From assembly GCA_021841025.1 (NCBI GenBank), contig JAKBWA010000062.1, positions 1 through 64,000 of the forward strand: a stretch of DNA of 64,000 nt, given 5' to 3'. A program made the translations under genes and the position numbers. Source of the stretch: Bacillota bacterium (lineage in GTDB: Bacteria > Bacillota > Sulfobacillia > Sulfobacillales > Sulfobacillaceae). Below are positions 48,890 to 51,009 of the stretch, piece after piece (position 1 is the stretch's first letter; every line of letters starts with the position of its first letter). The notes beneath the pieces were generated by a model. It made no database searches, had not been told where the DNA came from, and saw only the letters and a list, made by a program, of their open reading frames with translations.

Positions 48890-49795
48890 ATGCGCGCAAA
48901 ATTCATCTTGTATTTGGTTGGAGCCAACGTGCTCTGGGCGGGAAACTACCTGGCTGGTAGGGTTTTGCGTCTCAGCATGGGGCCTTTTACCCTCAATGGC
49001 ATACGTTGGATTATCTCAGCCATGATTTTATGGATCATTGTGTCAAAACGCGGGGAATACGTACCATTAAGGCGGGAATGGAAAGCCTTTCTTCTCCTCG
49101 GAACTTTTGGAATGGTGTTATTCTCGAGCTTTACGTATTGGGGACTGAGTATGGTCCCAGCAGGAGAAGCGGGTCTGTTGTCAGGATTTACACCATTGGC
49201 GGTTCTGGTGGCCGGCTTCGTGATAGCGCGTGACACGGTGCGGATATGGCAATGGCTGATGGTTGCCGTGTCTATAACAGGGGAAATTTTGCTGCTGGGT
49301 GGAGCGGGTCATGCTTCTGGAGGAAGTGTTTTTGGTGCTTTAATCTTGATTGGTGCTGCGTTGTCGTGGGGCATTTATACAGCATTGGGGCGGCGTTACC
49401 GGCACCGGTTGTCAGCCTTGGTGCTAACCACGGGGGCCGCCATATGGGGAGCCGTGCCGTCCGCCGTGCTGGGAATTGTGAATCTTGCCACACATCCCAT
49501 AAGCCTTGATTCGCAAAGTATCCTGGCCTTGTTATATATCAGTACGATGGCTTCGGTCGTGGCCTTCATGATGTGGAGTGCTGGGGTTAATGAACTGGGA
49601 AGTGGTACCGCGGCTCCATATTTAAACTTGTTGCCGGTGTTTACGGCGTTGTTAGCTGTGATGTTGCTCCACGAATCGTTAAGTGTGTCCCAGCTTGAAG
49701 GCGGATTGATCGTTGTGGCGGGTGCTGTGGGGGCAGCATGGTCCAAAGAGGCACCCCATTCTCTTAAGAAGACGCCGACATCGATGCCTGAATAA
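48890..49795 (+). CDS. EamA/DMT-family transporter
   Basis: A 301-residue permease with ten membrane segments in two EamA repeats (about 5-135 and 150-285). G-A-N-V-L-W-A-G-N-Y near the start and A-A-P-Y-L-N-L-L-P-V-F near 240 are typical. Exports or imports a small metabolite of unknown identity. Its terminator lies at 49855-49893, inside the convergent thioredoxin-fold gene. Confidence 0.92.
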   Translation: MRAKFILYLVGANVLWAGNYLAGRVLRLSMGPFTLNGIRWIISAMILWIIVSKRGEYVPLRREWKAFLLLGTFGMVLFSSFTYWGLSMVPAGEAGLLSGFTPLAVLVAGFVIARDTVRIWQWLMVAVSITGEILLLGGAGHASGGSVFGALILIGAALSWGIYTALGRRYRHRLSALVLTTGAAIWGAVPSAVLGIVNLATHPISLDSQSILALLYISTMASVVAFMMWSAGVNELGSGTAAPYLNLLPVFTALLAVMLLHESLSVSQLEGGLIVVAGAVGAAWSKEAPHSLKKTPTSMPE

Positions 49796-50399
49796 GATAG
49801 GCCGCAAAATGTTGAGGGGATACCGTGCCGGTAAAGACATAAGGTCCCGGCTCGCACCATGTTGTGGGAACTCCCATAACATGGTGTTTTTTTGCCTTGT
49901 TGGAAAACTCATCCGTTTGAATGACGTGGGCTGTGATTAAAGGCTGCAAGACGCAAAAGTTGATGGCCATGTTCACGACATGGGGACACCGGGTTCATGT
50001 AGGGGACACAAAAATGTTTGCGCTGACGGGATGATGAATTTCCTTCAATAATTGGCTCCAAGGGGTGGGAGAAGAATCTTGGGGACGCACGGAGGCTACC
50101 ACAGCTTCAATAAAGGAGCGATATTCCAAACCCGTGGGCGTGCCCACAAAATGAACGCCAAAGACCTTTCCGTCCCGGTTACGAATTGTCACAGCGGGGT
50201 CTAGATCTGCGCCAATTCTTCCTACTACCTCCCGAGAAATTTTTTGGGGCATCAAGCTGACCGTATAATGGACCAGATCCCGGATAGCTTGTGTGGCCGG
50301 GCTGTCCCATTGATTAGTATGAATACTCAGCACAACCGGTTCAGCTAATAAAGACAACACTGCGGTGACGTCTTGTTCGTGTTCCGAATCTAAAATCAT
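49764..50399 (-). CDS. Candidate selenoprotein: protein-disulfide-oxidoreductase-like, in-frame UGA
   Basis: Two minus-strand open frames (50399-49998 and 49994-49764) are in register and separated only by a TGA at 49995-49997. Read through as selenocysteine the product is 211 residues. Residues about 20-115 form a degenerate first thioredoxin fold (no CxxC); 125-211 form a second fold. The second reads I-F-V-S-P-T-U135-T-R-C138-P-H-V-V-N and later M-G-V-P178-T-T-W with the conserved cis-proline. Family members (PDO, AhpF N-terminal domain) have C-x-x-C-P exactly here, so the UGA replaces the first redox Cys. A hairpin follows the UGA (49967-49983). AAGGAG precedes ATG 50399. The alternative is a Cys-to-stop nonsense mutation. 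Selenocysteine machinery is not in the window. Confidence 0.65.
49855..49893 (+). terminator. Rho-independent terminator of the rhodanese-EamA operon
   Basis: A 14-bp stem with one G-U pair (49855-49868 with 49873-49886), four-base loop, then seven T. It is 60 bases after the EamA stop and lies entirely within the coding sequence of the opposite-strand thioredoxin-fold gene, covering its residues 169-182 including the cis-proline. Confidence 0.9.
49967..49997 (-). promoter_or_regulatory. Candidate bacterial SECIS element with UGA codon
   Basis: Following the UGA (49997-49995) on the minus strand, CCATGT and ACATGG pair around a five-base CGTGA loop (49983-49967). A G-G/C-C pair below it is possible with a bulge. 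The loop begins 18 bases after the UGA and has G at its second position, in line with the known bacterial SECIS pattern. The stem is short, so the call needs covariation support. Confidence 0.5.
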
Positions 50400-51009
50400 C
50401 TTTACTAATCTCCTTAGCGATTGACTTGGTCTAAAGGGAATTTTTAACTGACTGTATCTCCAGCACAATGTGGAATCGATGGCCATACTAAAGATTGCAC
50501 CGATCTTTACGGTCTATCCGTCATGCGTCACCAATTGACGGTGACGCATTGTAATACGCGCTCAATCCTCGTGGGCTTTCGCGTCTTCATCCCGCACCAG
50601 CTCGGAAACTCGCGAGAGTTATTCTATGGTTACGATACCATTCTTGGCTGCAGTGTAAAATGATTGGCCAAGGCGTGTTCTGGGATGGGGCTAAAAGTGA
50701 CGGCGAGAAAACATCACAGGGAAACACTGCCAAAACGAAAAGACGGTGCTGACCCTCAATGAGAAAGGGGAGAGCAATGGGCATTTCGGAGGTGACAAAA
50801 AGGGCAATGAGTCTGGCTGCGTCGTTGCGAATCGATCATGTATTCGTGTGATATTTTGGCGTTTTCGGGGCGTCTAATCCATTTCTCCTCCAAAGGAGAG
50901 CGCAAGTTTGCTGCCAAAGCCTTTTCTTCAAATGCCAGGTTTCTTTTGCATAATACCAATGTCCTTAGACAAGCTACCAAGGTAAATACTTTTGAGGAGG
51001 TCTTTGGCC
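50400..51009. other. Intergenic region with a 10-bp palindrome
   Basis: No gene is supported over about 610 bases; the short minus-strand frames here lack ribosome sites and family features. A perfect hairpin ATGCGTCACC (50523-50532) with GGTGACGCAT (50540-50549), loop of seven, lies about 125 bases upstream of the thioredoxin-fold gene. It could be an operator or a transcript-end structure; no T run follows. Confidence 0.5.

Follow-up and report, generated by a model that had tools for sequence, protein, structure and literature searches.

A minus-strand reading frame in the window, by which we mean the whole stretch of 64,000 nucleotides analysed here, is interrupted by an in-frame UGA (49997-49995) that, judged from aligned homologues, stands for an active-site Cys codon. 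This raises the question whether translation ends at this codon or whether the hairpin that lies directly behind it acts as a bacterial SECIS element (bSECIS) and has the codon read as selenocysteine (Sec). The host organism is a relative of Sulfobacillus, and of the four papers in the searched library that contain both Sulfobacillus and selenocysteine, the two on Sulfobacillus name no Sec proteins other than formate dehydrogenase and PrxU.

The host gene and its predicted product

With the TGA read as Sec, the 5' part of the frame continues into a 3' part that runs to 49764, and translation, Pfam and TIGR02187 matches, aligned starts, predicted fold and dN/dS together describe a putative selenoprotein gene (49764-50399, minus strand) for a two-domain thioredoxin-fold disulfide oxidoreductase of 211 residues (AhpF N-terminal/PDO-like). 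The longer open reading frame opens at 50486; the alignment of homologue starts points to the ATG at 50399 as the likely start, which a probable ribosome binding site, AAGGAGA (50409-50415, minus strand), precedes by 9 nt. A perfect 10-bp inverted repeat, ATGCGTCACC-GTCAATT-GGTGACGCAT (window 50523-50549, minus strand), is located approximately 125-150 nt upstream of this start and is a possible operator or terminator. At its 3' end the gene shares 32 nt (49764-49795) with the end of a convergent open reading frame of 301 amino acids (48890-49795, plus strand) that resembles a membrane transporter.

The match to Pfam Thioredoxin_3 (PF13192) extends across the UGA, and downstream of this codon the comparison of the window gene with four orthologues gave dN of 0.08-0.16 and dS of 0.37-0.81; since dN is well below dS, the frame beyond the UGA is under purifying selection. 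The predicted Sec takes the place of the first Cys of the PTCxxC motif and would create the active site U-T-R-C, a UxxC motif in the second domain. Protein disulfide oxidoreductases (PDOs) carry CxxC in both domains. In the AlphaFold2 model, built on a seven-sequence alignment, two thioredoxin-like domains were predicted (pLDDT 76, pTM 0.77), with residues 173-192 modelled poorly, and the best PDB matches of this model found with Foldseek (TM 0.80-0.84) were the Aquifex aeolicus PDO (2YWM, 2AYT; TM 0.84) and AhpF N-terminal domains (1ZYN, 5H29). The fold is thus shared, on the window side as a predicted model, with proteins that use Cys, whereas the sole active-site motif of the window protein is the UxxC of its second domain.

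TIGR02187 (Homolog of AhpF N-terminal domain, Grx-like domain protein) is already listed as a UxxC selenoprotein family (PMC13188914). The window protein resembles this family in its UxxC, its two thioredoxin-fold domains and a match over nearly its full length, but differs in the missing CxxC of the first domain and in a score of 102.6 bits. Because this score is below the cut-off of 185, we assign the protein, on the profile match, to a related, divergent subfamily outside the TIGR02187 equivalog. Two of the UGA-containing paralogues in the same genome exceed the cut-off (211.6 and 194.9 bits).

Geometry and stability of the hairpin

On the minus strand the TGA is followed by ACCCGGTGTCC and then by CCATGT CGTGA ACATGG. 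The resulting CCAUGU-CGUGA-ACAUGG hairpin (49983-49967) has a 6-bp stem and a 5-nt loop, that is, a 5' arm CCAUGU (49978-49983), an apical loop CGUGA with G at position 2 followed by U (49973-49977) and a 3' arm ACAUGG (49967-49972). The original prediction had read from the letters a stem starting 12 bases after the UGA, a loop from base 18 and a G as its second base, and this geometry is correct; the distance from the UGA to the apical loop is 17 nt. The rule it had applied for bacterial elements, a loop 16-37 nt away with a G in its first two positions, agrees with the published bSECIS rules, which ask for a loop of 3-9 nt with at least one G in the first two positions, an upper stem of 4-16 bp, a spacing of 16-37 nt and an energy of at most -7.5 kcal/mol (PMC13188914). 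Loop, stem, loop G and spacing of the window hairpin all lie within these limits and, like the bSECIS consensus, it is placed in the coding region directly after the UGA and presents G and then U in the loop. Unlike the consensus, it is a short, bare 6-bp stem, and its 17-nt form is weaker than the energy threshold (-5.3 kcal/mol by itself), whereas the fold of 45-50 nt is below it (-9.5 kcal/mol).

RNA folding of the 50-nt stretch returned exactly the CCAUGU/ACAUGG stem. The stretch as a whole (-9.5 kcal/mol) was no more stable than its dinucleotide shuffles (mean -9.1 kcal/mol, z = -0.15), and the energy of the lone hairpin, being equal to that of shuffles, was dropped as evidence. The SECIS stem of E. 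coli fdhF has a bulged U, which the window stem does not have. When the published rules were applied by script to all 2242 TGA triplets of the window, counted over the two strands, 44 of them (2.0%) preceded a stem of 6 or more Watson-Crick pairs obeying the loop and spacing rules, and 15.8% did so when G-U pairs were allowed. As 2.0% of the TGAs have a comparable hairpin, the single hairpin on its own is only weak evidence, about 1 in 50.

Conservation and covariation of the stem

The homologue search covered 61 related genomes and yielded about 60 distinct UGA homologues, all with the UGA at the same codon as the window gene, the closest of them from the same genus with 58-70% identity. A contig scan for close relatives returned only Sulfobacillus benefaciens AMDSBA1, which carries one of the UGA homologues. 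Two same-genus orthologues carry Cys at this codon, as TGT (G005) and TGC (G001). The genome itself is rich in Sec: besides the window gene it has three or more UGA paralogues of the oxidoreductase family, and its SelD gene also contains an in-frame UGA.

Homologues were aligned gap-free on the UGA and pairs were scored at a fixed distance from it. All six pairs were found in register in 57 of 60 distinct UGA homologues versus 1 of 14 Cys homologues, these counts coming from related sequences and not representing independent events; UGA homologues devoid of a stem, which the original prediction had named as the observation that would speak against it, are thus not what the family presents. The loop GU was found in 60/60 UGA homologues and also in 14/14 Cys homologues, where it belongs to a Val codon, and so does not discriminate between the two groups. 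The stem occurs as CCAUGU/ACAUGG, CCAGAU/AUCUGG, CCAGGC/GCCUGG, CCGGGC/GCCUGG, GCAGAU/AUCUGC and CAGCGC/GCGUUG.

For covariation we chose 25 representatives for diversity. RNAalifold, run blind, recovered exactly the six pairs, five of which were changed on both sides, so that the compensatory changes for which the original prediction had suggested looking in homologous genes are indeed present. In the proposed structure 98.7% of the cells were paired and the covariation score was 0.618, against 0.283 +/- 0.033 in shuffles, none of which reached it (0/500, a figure that is not a probability given the relatedness of the sequences); with the structure slid along the alignment, a control that retains this relatedness, the score was at most 0.104. 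In these alignments the stem is retained by paired compensating changes in UGA genes and lost in most Cys relatives. The in-register conservation and covariation lift the hairpin far above chance, and the proposal of a SECIS-like hairpin right after the UGA gains its support from them and from the loss of the stem in most Cys homologues.

Protein constraint versus RNA constraint

A conserved protein motif could itself produce a stem as a by-product, in which case the UGA might still encode Sec and the true signal would lie elsewhere. We therefore kept each protein fixed and redrew the codons from local usage in 1000 trials. The full stem, observed in 95% of UGA homologues, was expected from the redraw in 11% (maximum 25% over the 1000 trials), while among Cys homologues it was observed in 7% and expected in 3%. 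Within the clade of the window gene the protein alone yields the stem in 35% of the redraws and, since this explains much of the stem, the clade would not convince by itself; the decisive evidence comes from the wider family, in which residues and stem change together. Several homologues, moreover, have alternative minimum-energy folds. Against a chance hairpin there stand, besides the redraw, the stem's synonymous sites, all of which are fixed among UGA orthologues but not among Cys orthologues. In five UGA orthologues of the clade every base of codons +3 to +9 is identical, in the compared pairs 42% of third positions differ in the shared codons before the UGA, and in the two Cys orthologues both codons and residues of the +3 to +9 stretch are altered. 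Across subfamilies the residues +5 to +9 of UGA genes shift together (HVVNM, QMVHL, QAVRL, RAVRL, SAVRV) in a way that preserves all six pairs; in the two same-genus Cys orthologues they are HVVAM and QVVDQ. The other objection foreseen by the original prediction, that protein conservation would explain the stem fully and without compensatory change, is answered by the redraw and by the double changes in five of six pairs. We regard a chance hairpin as very improbable; these comparisons are read most simply as selection for the stem at the RNA level, with the amino acids following from it.

A further reading, towards which we incline only slightly, is that the SECIS stem dictates the residues after the active site, thereby constraining the sequence of a catalytic helix. 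It is a further possibility, with weak support, that another hairpin, some 110 nt downstream, has an effect on the mRNA as well. This second, stronger hairpin, CACCATGTT...AACATGGTG, is formed around TGGGA/TCCCA in codons +37 to +47, counted from the UGA (window 49855-49886, minus strand). The protein sequence HHVMGVPTTWC accounts for most of it (codon-redraw P of 0.01-0.11 for energy per gene), yet one third-position pair in it varies as T-A, C-G and A-T. As part of the Sec signal it is unsupported, being found in UGA and Cys orthologues alike and following in the main from the protein. Synonymous divergence between orthologues was 14-25% of shared codons after the UGA (window 49767-49994, minus strand), as against the 42% before it, and the low values cover the entire 3' part, beyond the SECIS alone.

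Selenocysteine machinery in the genome and its relatives

The draft genome encodes SelA (539 bits) and the UGA-containing SelD (362 bits), while SelB and a complete tRNA-Sec were searched for in it and not found; its matches to the Rfam tRNA-Sec model are Ser, Leu and Tyr tRNAs according to ARAGORN. In a sister genome (G003) selC lies directly after a cysteine synthase gene. One contig of the draft (C22) shows this arrangement up to its end, which falls 16 bases into selC (GGGAGTAGTTGGGGGC versus GGGGGTAGTTGGGGGC), with 15 of these 16 bases equal to the sister tRNA-Sec, and it is probably because of this contig end that the draft seems to be without tRNA-Sec. Of the 18 kb that surround selB in the sister genome, nothing but a tRNA match was found in the draft, and the SecD protein encoded next to selB was not found in the draft by a query that found it in 6/6 other genomes. 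Since the adjoining secD is missing as well, the missing selB, like the incomplete selC, is best read as an assembly gap. Loss of the Sec trait in the species is less likely in view of the selC truncated at a contig end, the missing neighbour secD and the success of its query in six other genomes. Sister genomes possess SelB and complete tRNA-Sec. Across the 61 genomes SelB was present in 40 of 43 with a UGA homologue versus 7 of 18 without one, an association between related genomes for which the Fisher value is indicative only. In two genomes with no SelB or tRNA-Sec over the cut-offs (G010 and G019), the homologues with a locatable active site were only Cys forms.

The same hairpin and SelB could also serve a Sec-like tRNA-Cys with UCA anticodon (selC* type), the UGA then being read as Cys, and such systems have been described in some bacteria (PMC7609411). 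Eight relatives carry tRNA genes with Cys (GCA) anticodon and a long variable arm, which score 52-65 bits with the tRNA-Sec model and resemble the selC* tRNA-Cys of Firmicutes and others (PMC7609411); none of this type was seen in the genome studied here. Although relatives thus possess Sec-like tRNA-Cys genes, the anticodon of these is GCA and not UCA, and the UCA tRNA found in relatives is called tRNA-Sec (64-77 bits with the Rfam tRNA-Sec model). The Sec-making SelA and SelD in the genome and the agreement of its selC start with the sister tRNA-Sec likewise favour Sec, and decoding as Cys appears highly unlikely.

An ordinary stop or a decayed gene, with the UGA derived from a Cys codon (TGT and TGC are one change away) through nonsense mutation or an error in sequencing and the downstream part untranslated, might be read from the SelB and tRNA-Sec missing in the draft, but the same UGA in many genomes and paralogues, the purifying selection that continues past it and the tie of stem conservation to the UGA make it the least probable reading, one that conservation has already refuted for the family.

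A probable SECIS element in a divergent relative of the TIGR02187 family

We are left, with high confidence, with the reading that the mRNA of this two-domain disulfide oxidoreductase contains a bacterial SECIS element, the hairpin at 49983-49967, which would serve to place Sec at the UGA. SelB with GTP and Sec-tRNA(Sec) is known to bind SECIS and bring Sec to UGA (PMC13188914). From this pathway we infer that SelB loaded with Sec-tRNA(Sec) would attach to the hairpin loop as the ribosome arrives at the UGA (49997-49995), and selenocysteine would be inserted in place of termination, completing the U-T-R-C active site. The enzyme would have a redox role, with peroxiredoxins or protein disulfides as the probable recipients of its electrons.

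On the comparative evidence we are very probably dealing with a true bSECIS, in a gene related to, but divergent from, an established family of UxxC selenoproteins, and what had been a guessed hairpin is now a well-supported SECIS. The reading of the gene is corrected accordingly, as stop-codon rules would cut the protein at its active site, and the subfamily to which it belongs lies below the NCBIfam cut-off. Moreover, the pairs of Sec and Cys orthologues within one genus offer a clean test of how an RNA signal in a coding region constrains protein sequence.
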